A DNA stretch of 60,666 bases, taken from an uncultured Bacilli bacterium. GTDB taxonomy: Bacteria > Bacillota_I > Bacilli_A > ML615J-28 > CAG-698. The stretch's first letter is position 1; each line of letters opens with the position of its first letter. Positions 16,172-25,006 of the stretch are shown piece after piece. Under the pieces are notes generated by a model, which was not told where the DNA came from, made no database searches, and saw only the letters and a program-made list of their open reading frames with translations. The position numbers and the translations under genes were made by a program. Where the stretch lies: the NCBI GenBank assembly GCA_947627195.1, contig CANQVC010000004.1, forward strand, positions 1 to 60,666, in the 5' to 3' direction.

Positions 16172-17260
16172 TTATTTTATTTTTTTGCCATGATATTTTA
16201 AAGCATTAGAAGAAAAACTTTTAATTTTTTGTTTCTTTTCATAATCATCTTTTAAAGCTTTTTCAATTAAAATATCAATTAATTCATCAAAATAAATGCC
16301 TTTATCTTCAAATAAATAATATGCGAAAGATCCAGGAATTGTATTTATTTCATTAACATACAATTGATTTTCATTGTTATCGTATAAAAAATCAATTCTT
16401 ACTACCCCTTTGTTTTGCGTTATGTTATATACTTTTTTAGCTAATTCCATTATTTCATTTTCTAAATCATTATTTATGTTAGCTGGTAAAATATGTTGGG
16501 ATAGAGATTGTTCATATTTATCTTGAAATGTAAGAAAAGAATTTGAGGTACAAACTTCTTCAACACAAGATACTAAATCATCAATAACAGCACAATTAAA
16601 TTCTTTCACATCTTGTAATAATGGTTCAATTAAAACTCTTTTATCATATTTAAATGCTTGATGTAAAGCAAGTTGTATATCTTCTTTGTTTTCCACTTTT
16701 TTAATGCCAATACTTGAACCTAAATTACTTGGTTTCACAATTATTGGTAAAGAAAAAGATATTATTTCTTCAATGATTTCATCTTTTCTTTGGAAAAAAT
16801 CTTTTTCTTCATATGATAAAAAAGGTAAAGTAGGAATTTTATCATAACTTAATATCTTTTTAAATGTTATTTTATCTTGACCAATACTTGCTCCTAACAC
16901 ATCACTAGATGTATATGGAATATTTAAAATACTTAAAAAACCTGCTAATTCACCACTTTCTGCTCCAACACCATGAACAGCATTAATAACAACGTCAATA
17001 GGAATTATTTTGGAAAATTTACCCCTTTTTTTCACGCCTGCTTGCGTTAAAGTAACTTCTTCTAAAATGACATCATCTCTTAAAAATGTATCAACAGAAT
17101 TAAAATTTTCTCCCATCATAAATTTATTTTGTTTATTTAAATATAAAGGAATGACATGATATTTCTTAGGATGAATTGAATTTAATATTTGTATCCCTGT
17201 TAAGATAGAAATTTCATGTTCAACAGTATTTCCCCCAAATATAACAGCAACATTCATCAT
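16172..17260 (-). CDS. ddl: D-alanine--D-alanine ligase (ATP-grasp)
   Basis: Makes the D-Ala-D-Ala dipeptide for peptidoglycan precursors. 362 residues: N-terminal VAVIFGGNTVEHEISILTG, ATP-grasp region VKPSNLGSSIGIKKV, and the metal site RIDFLY..VNEINTIPGSFAYYLF near the end. The ending NTIPGS.A.YL differs from the NTxPGFT.S.yP of classical DdlA/DdlB and marks a divergent subgroup. Whether the second substrate is D-Ala, D-Ser or D-lactate cannot be decided here. It lies 8 bases after the membrane MurF-like gene, so the two should supply and use the same dipeptide. No racemase or VanX-like gene is adjacent. Confidence 0.88.
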   Translation of the reverse strand: MMNVAVIFGGNTVEHEISILTGIQILNSIHPKKYHVIPLYLNKQNKFMMGENFNSVDTFLRDDVILEEVTLTQAGVKKRGKFSKIIPIDVVINAVHGVGAESGELAGFLSILNIPYTSSDVLGASIGQDKITFKKILSYDKIPTLPFLSYEEKDFFQRKDEIIEEIISFSLPIIVKPSNLGSSIGIKKVENKEDIQLALHQAFKYDKRVLIEPLLQDVKEFNCAVIDDLVSCVEEVCTSNSFLTFQDKYEQSLSQHILPANINNDLENEIMELAKKVYNITQNKGVVRIDFLYDNNENQLYVNEINTIPGSFAYYLFEDKGIYFDELIDILIEKALKDDYEKKQKIKSFSSNALKYHGKKIK

Positions 17261-17268
17261 AAAACCCC

Positions 17269-18909
17269 CTACACAAAATAGTTGTCTGTTAGATCATTTT
17301 CAATTAACACAGTAATATTTTCATTTTTAATAAGACTATATGCTTCTTTAAATGAAGATACAATAGTGAAATGAGAAAAATGATTCTCCATAAAATAATC
17401 AATATAATATTTAGTTATTTTATTTTTTACTAAAATAACTTGATCAACAATATCTATCATTGCTGAAGCAACTTTAGTATTTATTTCTTTTTCTTTATTT
17501 CCCCCATCAACAATCCCAGGTGTAATTACAAATTTATTATTTGTTGATGTTGATAAAACTTCTAAAGCATTAAGAAATCCAGCAATATTACTATTATATG
17601 CATCATCTAGAATAGTAAGAAAACCATTTTTGTTTGGTATAATTCTTTTTTCTAAACGATGAGGATATGGATTTAAACATTGAATTTCGTTTTGAATAGT
17701 TATAGGATCATAATCTAATGATAAAAGTAAACTGATACTTGATAAAATATTACTAACAGTATGTTTACCTAATAATGATGTATAAATAGGGAATGTACCA
17801 TTTTTATTGTTAATATTGTATTCTACTTCAAAAATAGTTTTATCAATTGATATCTTAATATTCTTGCCATAAATATAAAATAATTTAATTGATTTTAAAT
17901 TATTAGATAAATTTATAATATCGTGATATATTTCTAAAGATGTTGTATAGGAAATAATCGCTTTACAAGTTTTGGGAATAAAAGATAAAATATTATCTCT
18001 AATTAATTTATTATCAAAATTAACAATACAAATTCCATTGTCTTTCATTCTAACAATAATTTGCATTTTCTCATGAATAATATTTTCCATAGAATGAAAT
18101 GATGACAAATGTTGGGGCAATATATTACTTAAAATAGCATAATCAGGTATTATATTTTTAGTTATTTTTTCAATATCATGAACATGACTTGCGCCCATTT
18201 CTAATATTAATTTTAGATTTTTTTGTCTTGGATTAGAATAAATATCATTGATGGTTTTACATAATCCATTTAATGTATTATATGATTTAGGGGAAGCATA
18301 AACTTCTTCATGTGATTTCATCATATCAAATATCATATGTTTAATACTAGTTTTTCCACCTGAACCTGTAATAGCAATAATAATGGGTTTATATTCTTTA
18401 ATAATATTTTTAGATTTAATTAAATATTTTTTCATAATTAATTTTTCAATTGGCATCATTATCAAAGATATTAAAAATATTACTAATGGATTAAAATAAT
18501 AAATTATTAAAGAAGCAATATTGAATGTGGAAAATGAATGATTAAGTAAATATGATAAAATTAAAATAAAGATAAATAATGTTATATAACAAATACTAAA
18601 GCGCATCATTCTTTTAGTTATTTTAAAATGAACAATTATTTTTTTTCTTTCTCGATAATTTAATAAAATTAAAACCAAAAAATAGATACAAAAAAATAAT
18701 GTAATATATAAAAATGAATGAAAGAAAATGAATAATAAAGATAAATGAATCCACCATTGCTTTAAATATATTTTCTTTAAATAACGAGAAAAACCACTTA
18801 AATGATAATGTTCTTGTTGATAAAATGATAAACACTTAATATATGATAAATAATTTATATAAAGTAAAAGAATAAATAAAATTATATTAAGAAATAAAGA
18901 AAAGGCCAT
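17269..18909 (-). CDS. murF: Membrane-anchored MurF-type Mur ligase
   Basis: 546 residues. About 160 N-terminal residues carry hydrophobic segments (4-24, 54-84, 104-124, 128-156), then a complete Mur ligase follows: P-loop ITGSGGKTSIK at about 180-190, EMGASHVHDI, NILPQHLSSF, and the C-terminal domain with LDDAYNSNIAGFLNALEVL, as in MurF. MurF adds D-Ala-D-Ala to the UDP-MurNAc tripeptide and is normally a cytosolic protein of about 450 residues. The membrane anchor is the unusual part. Three genes, hydrolase-murF-ddl, are packed with 3- and 8-base gaps. The start follows a strong GAAGGAGG. Confidence 0.85.
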   Translation of the reverse strand: MAFSLFLNIILFILLLYINYLSYIKCLSFYQQEHYHLSGFSRYLKKIYLKQWWIHLSLLFIFFHSFLYITLFFCIYFLVLILLNYRERKKIIVHFKITKRMMRFSICYITLFIFILILSYLLNHSFSTFNIASLIIYYFNPLVIFLISLIMMPIEKLIMKKYLIKSKNIIKEYKPIIIAITGSGGKTSIKHMIFDMMKSHEEVYASPKSYNTLNGLCKTINDIYSNPRQKNLKLILEMGASHVHDIEKITKNIIPDYAILSNILPQHLSSFHSMENIIHEKMQIIVRMKDNGICIVNFDNKLIRDNILSFIPKTCKAIISYTTSLEIYHDIINLSNNLKSIKLFYIYGKNIKISIDKTIFEVEYNINNKNGTFPIYTSLLGKHTVSNILSSISLLLSLDYDPITIQNEIQCLNPYPHRLEKRIIPNKNGFLTILDDAYNSNIAGFLNALEVLSTSTNNKFVITPGIVDGGNKEKEINTKVASAMIDIVDQVILVKNKITKYYIDYFMENHFSHFTIVSSFKEAYSLIKNENITVLIENDLTDNYFV

Positions 18910-18912
18910 GCA

Positions 18913-19695
18913 TTACAAAACCTCCTTCAAAACTTGAATAAACTTTTTTTCTTCATCCAAGTAAGGAAAATGTCCTGATTGATAAAATAAAATAAGCCTA
19001 CTTTGGGGTAATAATTCTTGCATAATTTTAGCATCTTTAATAGGAGTAGTTTTATCATTTATTCCCCATAATAAAATTGTTTCAGAATTTATTTTAGGTA
19101 ATAAATTTTTTAAATCTTCATGAACAATTTTACTCATTGTTTGTTTCATAATATCATTTAGTTTTCGATAATCTTCACTACCTGAATTTTTAATTAATTT
19201 TAAATATTTTTCCAAAGAAAATAAATGATACCATACTTTCTTTATTTTGTATGAAATTATTTTCTTTGTAATGGAGAAATCACGATATCGAATACCTGCA
19301 CTGTCAACTAAAATCATTTTTTGACATGAATATTTTAAACTATATTTAATAGCAACTCTTCCACCAAATGAATGACCTAGTAAAATAGGATTTTCAATAT
19401 GTAAATAGAAAAGTAATTGATGAATCATTTCCACAAATTCATCAAGACTAAATACTTCTTTAGGTTCATCACTTTCCCCAAATCCTGGAAAATCAACAGA
19501 TAAAATATTATAATTTGTTAGTGATGGATATAAAGAAGAAAAAGTTGTTAATGACATACCCCAACCATGTAAGAAAACAATTGGTGAATCAATTGGTATT
19601 ACTTCATTATTTATACTTTGATTTACATTATCTTTTAAATAAAGTTCATAATGAATGTTATACCATTCTTTTTTAATTTTAATACGAACATACAT
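18913..19695 (-). CDS. Alpha/beta hydrolase of unknown substrate
   Basis: Alpha/beta hydrolase fold protein: oxyanion motif FLHGWGMS, nucleophile elbow LLGHSFGGR, acid in LLWGINDKT and histidine in SGHFPYLD, so a full Ser-Asp-His triad is present. The substrate is unknown; close relatives are often annotated as esterases or peptidases. The chosen ATG at 19695 (MYVRIK) has GGGGGA upstream. A longer in-frame start at 19719 has no binding site and lies inside a hairpin. It is the first gene of a tight unit with the MurF-like and Ddl genes, which suggests an envelope role (inference). Confidence 0.82.
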   Translation of the reverse strand: MYVRIKIKKEWYNIHYELYLKDNVNQSINNEVIPIDSPIVFLHGWGMSLTTFSSLYPSLTNYNILSVDFPGFGESDEPKEVFSLDEFVEMIHQLLFYLHIENPILLGHSFGGRVAIKYSLKYSCQKMILVDSAGIRYRDFSITKKIISYKIKKVWYHLFSLEKYLKLIKNSGSEDYRKLNDIMKQTMSKIVHEDLKNLLPKINSETILLWGINDKTTPIKDAKIMQELLPQSRLILFYQSGHFPYLDEEKKFIQVLKEVL

Positions 19696-19703
19696 AAATA
19701 GAT

Positions 19704-19733
19704 AAATCCCCCATAGCAATTTATGAGGGATTT
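19704..19733 (-). promoter_or_regulatory. Hairpin covering the ribosome binding site of the hydrolase gene
   Basis: Arms 19704-19715 and 19722-19733 pair over 11 of 12 positions. On the minus-strand RNA the right arm contains the GGGGGA that precedes the hydrolase start. No T-run follows on the minus strand, but one follows on the plus strand (19735-19740). It may act as a weak terminator of the LtaS-like gene, a translational control element, or both. Confidence 0.5.
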
Positions 19734-19739
19734 GTTTTT

Positions 19740-21779
19740 TTATTCTTGTTTTTTAAAAAATAAGTCATTTTTTAAAAGTCTATCATTTAATTGTTTTTGT
19801 TTTAAGGCTAGGTCTTTAATATCTTGTAGTTTATCTTTAATATTATTATCAATAATATTATTATTGATTGGATATGTTTTTAAAGATGATGCACTTATCA
19901 TACCATAATCACTAATAACATCTAAAGTTCGTGGGGAATAATGAATAGTTGGTTCATTTGATAAAATATCGACACCAAAATAATAATCTGTATCTAAATT
20001 AAACAAGCTATCCATTGTTCTTTTAATATCTACTTGACTTCGAATTTTAGATATTGTTTGCGGAATAATATTTTTGCTTTTTGCACAATCATATATAACA
20101 AAAGGAATTTCTTGAGTAATTTTACGAAAAGCAAATTTATCTAAATTACGCCAATTCATATCATTAAAATTATTGATATTATCAATATAATTAAATATTG
20201 AGGCATCGCGATGGAAATCATGATGCGATATTGTTCCACCATGATCACCATATAAAGCAATAACAGTATTTTCTAATAAATTATTTTCTTCAAGTGAATC
20301 TAATAATTTACCAATGCAATAATCAACATAATGAGTATGTTCTAAATATCCTCTTAATAATTTCCCTTTAACATCATTCTTTAAGGAAAATCCTTCAGTG
20401 TCCAATACTTTTCTAAGATTACTATCTTCTTCATAAGGAATATGACAAGAAACTAAAACTGCAAAAGCAAAAGTTGGTTTAGTTGATTTAGTCATTAAAG
20501 AAACAGTTTCAGTCAATAAATCTTCATCAGCAATTCTAGTATGAATATAATTGTTATAATTATTATAATTTTCGGTAAATAAAGATATATCATAATGATA
20601 ATCAAAGCCATATGTATTAGTATGAACTTCAGTACGATTATAAAACACACCTGTGTTACCATGAATTGAAAAAGTTTGATATCCTTTTGCTTTAAAGTCT
20701 TTAGCTAATGTTGGATATTCGTGATTAACATTTTCATAAACTGTCATTGTTGAACCAGTTGGTCTTAAACCAGTCATTGCGGAAAATTCAGCATCAGATG
20801 TATTACCAATACCAACAGTTGTATAAAACTGATTACAATATATTCCTTCTTCAATCATTTTATTAATATTAGGAGTAATTTCTTTACCATTGACACTTAA
20901 ACCAATAGTGAAATTATTCATTGATTCCATTTGTAATAAAATAAGATTTTTATTGGTAAAGCAACCTTCATATTGACTATTGCCATATATATTACCATCA
21001 ATTTCATTTGTTCTTTCTTTTTCTTGATAATAAGCTAGTTCATTTAAAGTACTTTCCTTATCTTTCTTTGATAATTTATCAGGAATTAAATAACAATCAA
21101 TTGCATCTTTCACATAATAATTCCATAATCCACAATTTTGAATACCATATAATGGTTCATCATTTTTTTCAAACCATGTATTCGTTATTCTTGCGGAATA
21201 TAAAATTGAGGATGTTGAAGAAAATAATAACGAAATAACTAATATAACAATTCCAAAAATCTTTTTTATTTTAAAACCACCAAACATTGATGCATCCATT
21301 ATTTCATTATGTTTTTTATTTAAAAAGATAAAATAATAAATTAATAATAAAATAAATGGAATTAAAGTTAAATATTGAGCATTAGCTAATAAACTAAGTA
21401 ATGCATCAAAGAAAAATTCATAAGCCATTTCTCCTGCAGGATTATTTAAAGCTTTTAAATTTTTAAAAGAAAACATCATGCCAAAATTATAAACAAAAAC
21501 ACATAAGGCAAAACATAATATTGTATTAAATAAAGTAACACATAACAAATATTGACTACGATGACGATCTGAATGAAAAATTAAAATACCAATTCCTAAA
21601 AAGAATAATGATGTACCAAATGATCCAATAATATAATTTAAAATCATAATTCCATTTAAAGGAAATGGACTTAAATTATTATTAAAAAAAGATGTTGTAC
21701 AAAGAAAACAATTTAAACCATTTAATAATATAAATAATATAAAAAATATCCATTTTTTTATATTGGCTTTTCTTTCCAT
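19740..21779 (-). CDS. LtaS-family lipoteichoic acid synthase/phosphoglycerol transferase
   Basis: 679 residues: about five membrane segments in the first 200 residues, then an extracellular sulfatase-type domain. The catalytic threonine is Thr327 in GNTSDAEFS, with the metal-ligand Glu285 in QMESMN and the ALYGDHGG motif further on. LtaS enzymes move glycerol phosphate from phosphatidylglycerol to a glycolipid or growing teichoic acid. The C-terminal 110 residues after the sulfatase domain are longer than in typical LtaS. It lies 5 bases downstream of a membrane protein gene paired with a dead ABC-ATPase homologue. It may be a synthase or a primase-type paralogue. Confidence 0.88.
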   Translation of the reverse strand: MERKANIKKWIFFILFILLNGLNCFLCTTSFFNNNLSPFPLNGIMILNYIIGSFGTSLFFLGIGILIFHSDRHRSQYLLCVTLFNTILCFALCVFVYNFGMMFSFKNLKALNNPAGEMAYEFFFDALLSLLANAQYLTLIPFILLLIYYFIFLNKKHNEIMDASMFGGFKIKKIFGIVILVISLLFSSTSSILYSARITNTWFEKNDEPLYGIQNCGLWNYYVKDAIDCYLIPDKLSKKDKESTLNELAYYQEKERTNEIDGNIYGNSQYEGCFTNKNLILLQMESMNNFTIGLSVNGKEITPNINKMIEEGIYCNQFYTTVGIGNTSDAEFSAMTGLRPTGSTMTVYENVNHEYPTLAKDFKAKGYQTFSIHGNTGVFYNRTEVHTNTYGFDYHYDISLFTENYNNYNNYIHTRIADEDLLTETVSLMTKSTKPTFAFAVLVSCHIPYEEDSNLRKVLDTEGFSLKNDVKGKLLRGYLEHTHYVDYCIGKLLDSLEENNLLENTVIALYGDHGGTISHHDFHRDASIFNYIDNINNFNDMNWRNLDKFAFRKITQEIPFVIYDCAKSKNIIPQTISKIRSQVDIKRTMDSLFNLDTDYYFGVDILSNEPTIHYSPRTLDVISDYGMISASSLKTYPINNNIIDNNIKDKLQDIKDLALKQKQLNDRLLKNDLFFKKQE

Positions 21780-21784
21780 TTATC

Positions 21785-22330
21785 TCACCCCTCTAGTGGA
21801 ATTTTACGAATAATTATTTTATTACATACATAAAGTAAAATAATCATAATTAATAATATTATGTCAGAAATAATTTGATTAGGAATAAATATTGTGCCAA
21901 TAAAAATTATTAATCCTAATACTATCATTATTATTTTCCATTTATTTGGTATGTTTTGAATTATGAATCCTAATATACCTAAAAATAAACTAGCAAGATA
22001 TGTAAATATAATCATTCTAATTTGGGGAGCAAATATTTTCGACATAATAAATATAAATACATAATTTAAGGCAATACTTATAATTGAAATTAATATAACT
22101 ATACTAACATGAATTATAAATTGTTTTTCTAATTGTTTTCTTGTTAACCCTAAACCTAAACTAATAATATTTAATGAATATTTTTGACCAATCAAAAAAG
22201 AAGAAATTCCAGTTGTCATACATAAAACATATAAAGACATCTCAGCTTTTTCATTTAATAAAACATCAATTAGGAAAAGTAAAAAAAGTGTGCAAACAAA
22301 TGATATTATATAAGGTTTACATCGTTTCAT
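21785..22330 (-). CDS. Multi-pass membrane protein, possible ABC-2-like permease partner
   Basis: 181 residues with about six hydrophobic segments covering nearly the whole protein. A cytoplasmic loop SLGLGLTRKQLEKQF between segments two and three resembles the coupling-loop pattern (slGmtRkq) seen in ABC-2-type and lantibiotic-immunity permeases. I do not recognise a named family. It overlaps the preceding gene, which encodes a degenerate ABC ATPase homologue, by four bases (ATGA), the arrangement expected for an ABC ATPase-permease pair. The LtaS-like gene follows after 5 bases. Confidence 0.7.
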   Translation of the reverse strand: MKRCKPYIISFVCTLFLLFLIDVLLNEKAEMSLYVLCMTTGISSFLIGQKYSLNIISLGLGLTRKQLEKQFIIHVSIVILISIISIALNYVFIFIMSKIFAPQIRMIIFTYLASLFLGILGFIIQNIPNKWKIIMIVLGLIIFIGTIFIPNQIISDIILLIMIILLYVCNKIIIRKIPLEG

Positions 22331-23139
22331 ATGTAATCCTCCAAATCATATATAGATATTTCTTTTATTCGTTCTTTGTTATGATTTAATTTTTTCTTTT
22401 GTTCTTTTGTAAGTAAATCTTGAATGATAATATTATTAATATTATGTATACTACGATATAATAATATTGATTCTAAATTCAAATCACTAATTGTTTCTTC
22501 ATCAATTTCAAATATAACTAAAAATTTAGTATTTGGTTCCTTGATTTCAATAACTTGATTGTTAGCAAGAATAATTAACTTATCAAATATTCCTGTATAT
22601 TTTTTTAAAGAATCAATACCTATTAAATTTCCTCTTTTTTCTTTTATTTCGTTTTTTAAATATTCTATTTTCTTGGTATCTTGAATATAAGAAAAAGGAT
22701 GATATAAAATACGAAAAGCATATATTGCTAATGCTAATGCTAAATTAACTAATTGATTGCCATTATTATTAAAATTATATTCTATATCAAATTTACCTTC
22801 ACAACGAATCAATAATTCTTTTACATATTTTTTAAATAAATCTTGATGAAAAACTTTATGATATTTAGTAGCTATTAGATTTTGAATAATATTATCTAGT
22901 AATGTATGAACATATTTTTTTTCACAATCCATATATATTCTTTCTTGAAAATATTTTTCATCATCAAACAATATTTTATTTTTATAGAAACATTCATTAC
23001 TATAATTAATTCCTGATAAAATTAACAGTAATTGTTTTACAACATCTTCATGAGGACAATATATTCCTGTATTTTCATTTTCTAAGATGTTTGTACATAT
23101 TGTATATTGATGAAATTTAAGATTCTTTATTTCTATCAT
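22327..23139 (-). CDS. Degenerate ABC-transporter ATPase homologue lacking all catalytic motifs
   Basis: 270 residues that follow the ABC-ATPase layout by eye: MIEIKNLKF start, then LLLILSGI after the would-be P-loop, LALALAIYAFRILYHPFS at the signature/Walker B region, and FDKLIILANNQVIEI as in the D-loop-to-H-loop end. None of the catalytic motifs remains. Walker A is GIYCPHEDVVKQ (25-36), the signature is NFNNNGNQL (122-130), Walker B is FRILYHPFSYIQD (142-154) and the switch histidine is lost (GID, 174-176). A tail of about 70 residues follows. The frame is open and well translated, so it is not a decayed pseudogene. Probably a non-hydrolysing partner of the adjacent membrane protein. Confidence 0.7.
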   Translation of the reverse strand: MIEIKNLKFHQYTICTNILENENTGIYCPHEDVVKQLLLILSGINYSNECFYKNKILFDDEKYFQERIYMDCEKKYVHTLLDNIIQNLIATKYHKVFHQDLFKKYVKELLIRCEGKFDIEYNFNNNGNQLVNLALALAIYAFRILYHPFSYIQDTKKIEYLKNEIKEKRGNLIGIDSLKKYTGIFDKLIILANNQVIEIKEPNTKFLVIFEIDEETISDLNLESILLYRSIHNINNIIIQDLLTKEQKKKLNHNKERIKEISIYDLEDYI

Positions 23140-23254
23140 TTTAATACCTTTATTTCTCTATATTATTATAAAATATGTTTACATTGTTGTTAATATTATA
23201 TAACATTTTCTTTAATATGAAAAGTAAAATTTTAAAACTAAATGAAAATAAAAA

Positions 23255-23599: not shown

Positions 23600-25006
23600 T
23601 TATCCAATAGCTCCTGTCATCTCTAATTTGATTAGTTGATTTAATTCAACAGCATATTCCATTGGTAATTCTCTAGCAAATGGTTCAATAAAGCCCATGA
23701 CAATCATTTGTAAAGCATCATTTGCTTTAATACCACGACTCATTAAATAAAACAATTGTTCTTCACTTACTTTTGAAACTGTAGCTTCATGTTCAATTCT
23801 TGCTTTTTGATTTTGAACAAAATTAAATGGGATTGTATCACTTGAGGAAATATCATCTAATATGATAGTATCACATTCAACATGACTTCGAGCATTATAT
23901 GCTTCTTTACCATGTTTTACTGTACCACGATAATTTACTTTTCCTCCTCCGCGACAAATGGATTTAGAAATGATTGTTGATGAAGTATTAGGAGCTAAAT
24001 GAATCATTTTAGCACCTGTATCTTGATATTGTCCTTTAGATGCAAAAGCAATGGAAATTGTTGTTCCTTTTGCTCCTTCACCTGCTAATATACAAGCAGG
24101 ATATTTCATATTTACCATTGAACCAACATTACCATCAATCCATTCCATTGTAGCATTTTTCTCACAATACGCTCTTTTTGTGACAAGATTTACAATATTG
24201 TTACTCCAATTTTGGACTGTTGAATAACGACAATATCCTCCTTCTTTAACATATATTTCCACAATCGCGGCATGCAAAGAATCTTCAGAATAAATTGGTG
24301 CAGTACAACCCTCAACATAATGAACGCTAGCCCCTTCGTCAACAATTATTAAAGTACGTTCAAATTGTCCCATTTGTTTAGAATTAATACGAAAATATGA
24401 TTGTAATGGTTTTTCTACTTTTACACCTTTTGGTACATAAATAAAAGATCCTCCACTCCAAACACATGAATTTAAAGCGGCAAATTTATTATCAGTATAT
24501 GGGACAACTTTGCCAAAATATTGTTTAACTAAATCAGGATAATTTTTTAAAGCGGTATCTGTATCACAAAATATAACACCTAATTCTTCTAATTCTTTTA
24601 TAGTATTATGATAAACAACTTCTGATTCAAATTGAGTAGATACACCAGCAAGAAATTTCTTTTCTGCTTCAGGAATACCTAATTTATCAAATGTATCTTT
24701 AATTGCTCCTGGTACATCATTCCAATCTTTTTCCACACCTTTAGTTGATTTAATATAATAAGTATAGTCATCAAAATTAAGAAAACTTAAATCAGGGCCA
24801 AAAGATGGAAGAGGCATTGATATAAATTTATTAAAAGCTTTGATGCGAAAATCAAGCATCCATTCAGGTTCATTTTTATATTTAGATATTGCTCTAACAA
24901 CATCTTCATTTAAACCTTTACCTGTATCAACAACATTTTTAACATCAGTTTTAAATCCATATTGATATTCACCAACTATGGCATCAATTTCATTATTCTT
25001 CTTCAT
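23600..25006 (-). CDS. sufB: Fe-S cluster scaffold SufB
   Basis: 468 residues, the usual length. Recognised by [26 protein letters not shown]-like N-terminal sequence, by [26 protein letters not shown] and by the C-terminal [14 protein letters not shown] typical of SufB/SufD beta-helix scaffolds. SufB forms the SufBC2D complex on which clusters are built. It is the last gene of the sufCDSUB operon, in the Gram-positive order, and overlaps sufU by 14 bases. The only Fe-S assembly system in the window; PFOR and the EFR1 protein encoded nearby would be its clients. Confidence 0.97.

Follow-up and report, generated by a model that had tools for sequence, protein, structure and literature searches.

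A catalytically dead ABC-ATPase homologue and its membrane partner form a conserved pair beside an LtaS-like gene in a family of uncultured Bacilli

Organisation of the locus

A stretch of 60,666 nucleotides from the genome of an uncultured Bacilli bacterium belonging to a family of gut bacteria (hereafter, the window) carries two adjoining genes encoding an ABC-ATPase homologue (NBD1) and a membrane protein (TMD1), followed by a gene for a homologue of the lipoteichoic acid synthase LtaS. Judged from the alignment of its orthologues, NBD1 is an old, selected and non-catalytic nucleotide-binding domain, since all orthologues are dead, new residues have become conserved, the reading frames are open and dN/dS is below 1. 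ABC proteins with one degenerate site are known, normally with the other site alive; a conserved bacterial pair with a fully dead NBD was not found described in the open-access literature.

The genes lie on the minus strand in the order SufB, a small membrane ORF, NBD1, TMD1, LtaS-like, alpha/beta hydrolase, MurF-like and D-Ala-D-Ala ligase-like (Table 1). NBD1 and TMD1 overlap by 4 bp (positions 22327-22330), the LtaS-like ORF starts at position 21779, 5 bases past the TMD1 stop codon, and gaps of only 3-20 bases separate the hydrolase, MurF-like and ligase-like genes from each other and from the LtaS-like gene; the coordinates, the four-base overlap and the five-base gap given in the initial annotation are all correct in this ORF layout. 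Because of these short gaps and the sigma-A-like site before NBD1, the six genes from NBD1 to the D-Ala-D-Ala ligase-like gene likely constitute one envelope operon. The sigma-A-like site matches the consensus at 11 of 12 positions, a level at which chance occurrences are frequent in such AT-rich DNA. The small membrane ORF did not recur as a conserved neighbour at the other loci. The hydrolase, MurF-like and ligase-like cluster is also present in the sister family (L155, L157).

Table 1. Features of the NBD1/TMD1 locus (positions in the window)
Feature	Position	Strand	Remarks
D-Ala-D-Ala ligase-like protein	16172..17260	(-)	Assignment by eye, no family search
MurF-like ligase, long hydrophobic N-terminal membrane region	17269..18909	(-)	
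Alpha/beta hydrolase	18913..19719	(-)	Next gene in predicted operon
LtaS-type sulfatase-fold lipoteichoic acid synthase homologue	19740..21779	(-)	Motifs GNTSDAEF and YGDHGG in catalytic region
TMD1, 181 aa	21785..22330	(-)	Predicted six-helix membrane protein; G-x-(S/T)-R-K motif common to YtrC-type permeases
NBD1, 270 aa	22327..23139	(-)	Catalytically dead ABC-ATPase homologue; profile comparison and alignment
Sigma-A-like promoter TTAACA-17-TATAAT	23165..23193	(-)	25 bases before NBD1 start codon
Small two-helix membrane ORF, 83 aa	23296-23547	(-)	Between SufB and NBD1
SufB, end of suf operon	23600..25006	(-)	Usual upstream neighbour of NBD1

Homology of NBD1 to ABC ATPases and loss of the catalytic motifs

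As a single sequence, NBD1 has no match in Pfam, NCBIfam or the PDB. The best PDB matches of a profile built from 21 orthologues were ABC ATPases, namely EcfA2 (E-value 6.3e-6), the ABC ATPase of a Mn transporter (3.8e-5) and ST1066 (1.9e-4, profile positions 11-196). In profile comparisons with hhalign, the E-value was 1.5e-6 for a set of 28 live NBDs from the window's own genome and 1.9e-9 for live NBDs of the YtrB type; the scores against ABC NBDs were in the range of 50-70, while 60 column shuffles yielded at most 22 and reversed profiles 11-13. Since these controls lie far below the scores of the real comparisons, the homology of NBD1 to ABC ATPases is secure at the level of sequence profiles, and the same controls ruled out that NBD1 is not an ABC protein at all. 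The similarity runs across the domain, and the loop lengths of ABC ATPases are preserved. An AlphaFold2 model based on a two-sequence alignment (the window protein and one relative) reached a pLDDT of 44.8 with residues 188-270 as the only confident stretch; a PDB fold search with this low-pLDDT model ranked the PmtCD exporter first at a non-significant E-value of 0.047.

In NBD1, V34 aligns with the Walker A (P-loop) lysine, F123-N-N-N-G127 with the signature L-S-G-G-Q, Y146-H147 with the Walker B D-E pair, and D176 with the switch histidine. Not one of the 22 orthologues carries the lysine of the Walker A motif GxxGxGK(S/T), the LSGGQ signature, the Walker B aspartate, the Walker B glutamate or the switch histidine (0/22 in each case). 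New residues are conserved at these places: the signature has become F(T/S)xxGN(T/Q), Walker B reads N-P-T, and the switch position is mostly occupied by Asp or Asn; an R-x-E motif is also conserved among the orthologues. The initial annotation had described the 270-residue protein as an ABC-ATPase homologue that had lost Walker A, signature, Walker B and the switch histidine, and both parts of this description hold, the second for the window protein and for all 22 orthologues. Relatives with intact motifs, which it had named as a sign of recent decay, are absent among the orthologues and appear only among more distant proteins of the YtrB type.

The NBD1 frames are open in 22 genomes at orthologue identities of about 25-57%, and the overlap or near-contact of the two genes is maintained across genomes. 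A comparison of two species of the genus, at a dS close to saturation, gave dN/dS values of ~0.39 (NBD1) and ~0.26 (TMD1), and both genes are under purifying selection. Local decay of NBD1 was ruled out by this selection and by the absence of the motifs in 22/22 orthologues.

Distribution and ancestry of the pair

Of the 28 family genomes examined, 22 carry NBD1; no copy was found in the sister family, and the distribution of TMD1 across genomes is much like that of NBD1. In the class and phylum samples outside the family, the NBD1 profile gave only weak matches; the P-loop is intact in all six of those that were read, and the full live motif set occurs in G411 and G471, the strongest two, which belong to GntR-NBD-TMD operons. 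No dead copy of NBD1 was found elsewhere in these samples.

A low-confidence model of TMD1 has six helices, and its profile matches the permeases of GntR-YtrA-type operons with an hhalign E-value of 5.6e-6 and a score of 44 (controls: shuffled profiles, maximum 14.5; reversed, 22; LtaS membrane domain, 19); the six-segment, permease-like partner proposed earlier corresponds to a profile homologue of YtrC-type permeases. Pairwise profile comparisons with controls relate both NBD1 and TMD1 to their YtrB/YtrC-type counterparts, and with GntR-YtrA-type ABC-2 systems, such as YtrBC(D) of B. subtilis and PmtAB/PmtCD of S. aureus, the two proteins align over most of their length. Common features are a C-terminal extension of the NBD, a D-N-x(n)-R region after Walker A and the (G/N)x(S/T)RK motif of the membrane protein. 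Because of the NBD and TMD profile matches, the TMD motif and the match of NBD2, the NBD of a second eroded pair, to PmtA, a YtrB/YtrC- or PmtA/B-like (GntR-YtrA-type) ABC-2 transporter is the most likely ancestor of the pair. Ytr systems are linked to cell-wall homeostasis, which resembles the envelope setting of NBD1/TMD1. Unlike them, the pair has lost all catalytic motifs and is located in a lipoteichoic acid and peptidoglycan gene cluster, and the YtrA-type GntR regulator gene that accompanies the live relatives does not adjoin it in the window.

The LtaS-like gene and its linkage to the pair

The product of the gene downstream of TMD1 matches the solved extracellular domains of LtaS/LtaP (4uop, 4e-30; 2w8d, 7e-30), and its alignment with 4uop comprises an LtaS-type sulfatase domain with the nucleophilic threonine region (GNTSDAEF) and the DH metal motif (YGDHGG); its score with the NCBIfam LtaS model is 165, far under the equivalog cut-off of 970. 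By these matches, it is a homologue of LtaS-type lipoteichoic acid synthases with putative polyglycerol-phosphate polymerase activity. A second, distant LtaS-like match with 25% identity and stops inside the match is located elsewhere in the window's genome (G000 C1:133050-135050).

LtaS directly follows TMD1 in 15 of the 20 loci with a readable next gene, so that the coupling anticipated in the initial annotation occurs in most relatives. The trio of NBD1, TMD1 and LtaS is intact even though a glycogen operon (G010) or a glycine-cleavage operon (G009) lies upstream, and it is still together in G018, where two genes are inserted between SufB and NBD1; G026 and G015 likewise have an upstream neighbour other than SufB, and their short contigs show no more. 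The linkage is strong and not absolute, since the pair occurs without LtaS, LtaS occurs without the pair, and both occur at separate loci. The pair is present and LtaS undetectable in G005, G022 and G013, the last of which has truncated NBD1 and TMD1 (229 and 137 aa), while LtaS is at another locus in G011 and G012. Two genomes of 0.9-1.0 Mb (G007 and G020) keep LtaS without the pair, and two genomes of genus g14 have lost both the pair and LtaS and retain NBD2. NBD1 is on the whole most diverged in the three LtaS-less genomes (p 0.002, 19 genomes compared), and it remains so when measured against NBD2 (p 0.011). This greater divergence is suggestive of a tie between NBD1 and LtaS, and no stronger than suggestive because the LtaS-less genomes represent only two lineages.

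Possible role of the pair and alternative explanations

One could hypothesise that NBD1 and TMD1 constitute an ABC-2-type membrane module that gave up ATP binding and hydrolysis, in which the pseudo-NBD would still dock on TMD1. The complex may bind or position an enzyme of the membrane, with the LtaS-type polymerase encoded by the next gene as the likeliest candidate. It would then be a subunit that regulates or scaffolds without transporting, and that links polymer synthesis to a signal from the cytosol or the membrane. Homology, motif loss, selection, the operon-like layout and the linkage to LtaS all point to such a YtrB/YtrC-derived non-catalytic module regulating or scaffolding an envelope-polymer enzyme, and we favour this reading tentatively, at somewhat less than an even chance; docking and the interaction with LtaS are its conjectural parts. 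A putative role as a sensor or scaffold for teichoic acid synthesis is plausible, and the partner could also be another envelope enzyme, as the rest of the operon consists of peptidoglycan genes.

Live Ytr relatives offer an analogy for this role. B. subtilis cells in which ytrBCDEF is derepressed or overexpressed have a thicker wall, also when YtrB or YtrE is missing, and the authors of that study raised the possibility that the Ytr complex modulates wall enzymes and does not transport (PMC8060467); the ytr operon has also been tied to the lipid II cycle (PMC12772383). FtsEX is another ABC-type pair, described as a signal transmitter that controls a wall enzyme rather than transporting (PMC11627006). 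The comparison with FtsEX is by analogy and implies no kinship, since FtsE is an active ATPase and FtsX has a different type of membrane domain.

The window's genome encodes a second ABC pair, NBD2/TMD2 (G000:C2:84431-85989; L163:4432-5990, L077:1501-3059). The best NCBIfam match of NBD2 is PmtA, and its nearest live relatives are ATPases of GntR-YtrA-type operons with intact motifs; seven such relatives keep the catalytic motifs, one of them with Ala for a P-loop Gly. NBD2 itself is eroded to a lesser degree: the switch histidine and the signature glycine are lost in 21/21 aligned copies, while GK(S/T) survives in two of the 21 (G011 and G005) and the Walker B D-E pair likewise in two (G005 and G025). 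It was found in 23 of the 26 family genomes searched.

NBD1/TMD1 and NBD2/TMD2 might form one hetero-tetrameric, largely ATP-independent complex, as do PmtAB plus PmtCD or YtrB2CD, in which case the adjacency of LtaS would only reflect the pathway served. Homology of the two NBDs extends from end to end and takes in the C-terminal extension (hhalign E-value 1.3e-9, 272 columns), and NBD2 accompanies all 21 NBD1 carriers in the searched sample, three genomes having neither. Nevertheless, two genomes have NBD2 without NBD1, these being the g14 genomes that also lack LtaS; moreover, the NBD1 and NBD2 loci are unlinked and no similarity between TMD1 and TMD2 was detectable, and we regard a four-part complex as unlikely. 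A broader form of the regulatory reading, in which lineage-wide, fully non-catalytic ABC modules regulate or scaffold a lipoteichoic-acid-type synthase as its subunits and, together with the second eroded pair, act as ATP-independent envelope regulators, has perhaps a third of a chance of being correct. If true, a transporter family would have been converted wholesale into such regulators.

It is distinctly unlikely that the pair is a working transporter in which NBD1 combines with an intact NBD encoded elsewhere, as in an exporter with one degenerate site or an importer with a shared ATPase. ABC ATPases are matched at 70 places in the genome, and degenerate single sites, with a structural role, are common in ABC proteins (PMC7756269, PMC11466899); such a role of the degenerate NBD in TmrAB, BmrCD, MRP1 and CFTR is comparable with NBD1 (PMC7756269). 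However, degenerate NBDs of this kind spare half-sites, so that one composite ATP site works, whereas NBD1 has no intact half-site; with Walker A, signature, Walker B and switch all missing from it, both composite sites would be incomplete, and no gene for a live NBD adjoins it.

TMD1 could also be a passive scramblase for lipids or precursors, or a channel, serving the envelope operon, in which case NBD1 would plug or stabilise it structurally. This proposal draws on the purifying selection on TMD1 and on its position beside an enzyme with a membrane-lipid substrate, yet it is pure inference, the membrane core is small and neither residues nor structure give a sign of a path, which makes it improbable. 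A functionless relic in decay, to which the truncated copies in G013 and the loss of the pair from some genomes might point, is highly improbable and already contradicted by the diverged open frames in 22 genomes, dN/dS well below 1, the novel conserved motifs and the retained overlap or near-contact of the genes.

For the favoured regulatory or scaffold module, no precedent turned up in the open-access literature: searches there found neither a bacterial ABC pair whose NBD is entirely dead nor an LtaS that has an ABC-like partner, in agreement with the initial annotation, to whose author no system of this type was known. A conserved dead pair beside LtaS would provide a natural test of the idea that Ytr-type ABC proteins affect the wall by means other than transport. 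From live proteins of the YtrB type through the half-eroded NBD2 to the fully dead NBD1, the family spans several degrees of erosion, so that the loss of ATP dependence could be traced stepwise.

Genes resembling those for a SpoIIQ-like M23 peptidase and SpoIIID (both by eye) adjoin NBD2. A role in sporulation was rejected, since the spore marker SpoIVA and the pair are distributed differently: SpoIVA is absent from many carriers and present in most of the sister family, which has no pair. In genus g6, a possibly AlgJ/DltD-like gene is located directly upstream of NBD1 in G026 (L203, G026:C28:1-900), and a gene assigned by eye as an MBOAT-type acyltransferase lies downstream of SufB in G019 (L150, G019:C40); these two genes may indicate polymer acylation near the NBD1 locus.
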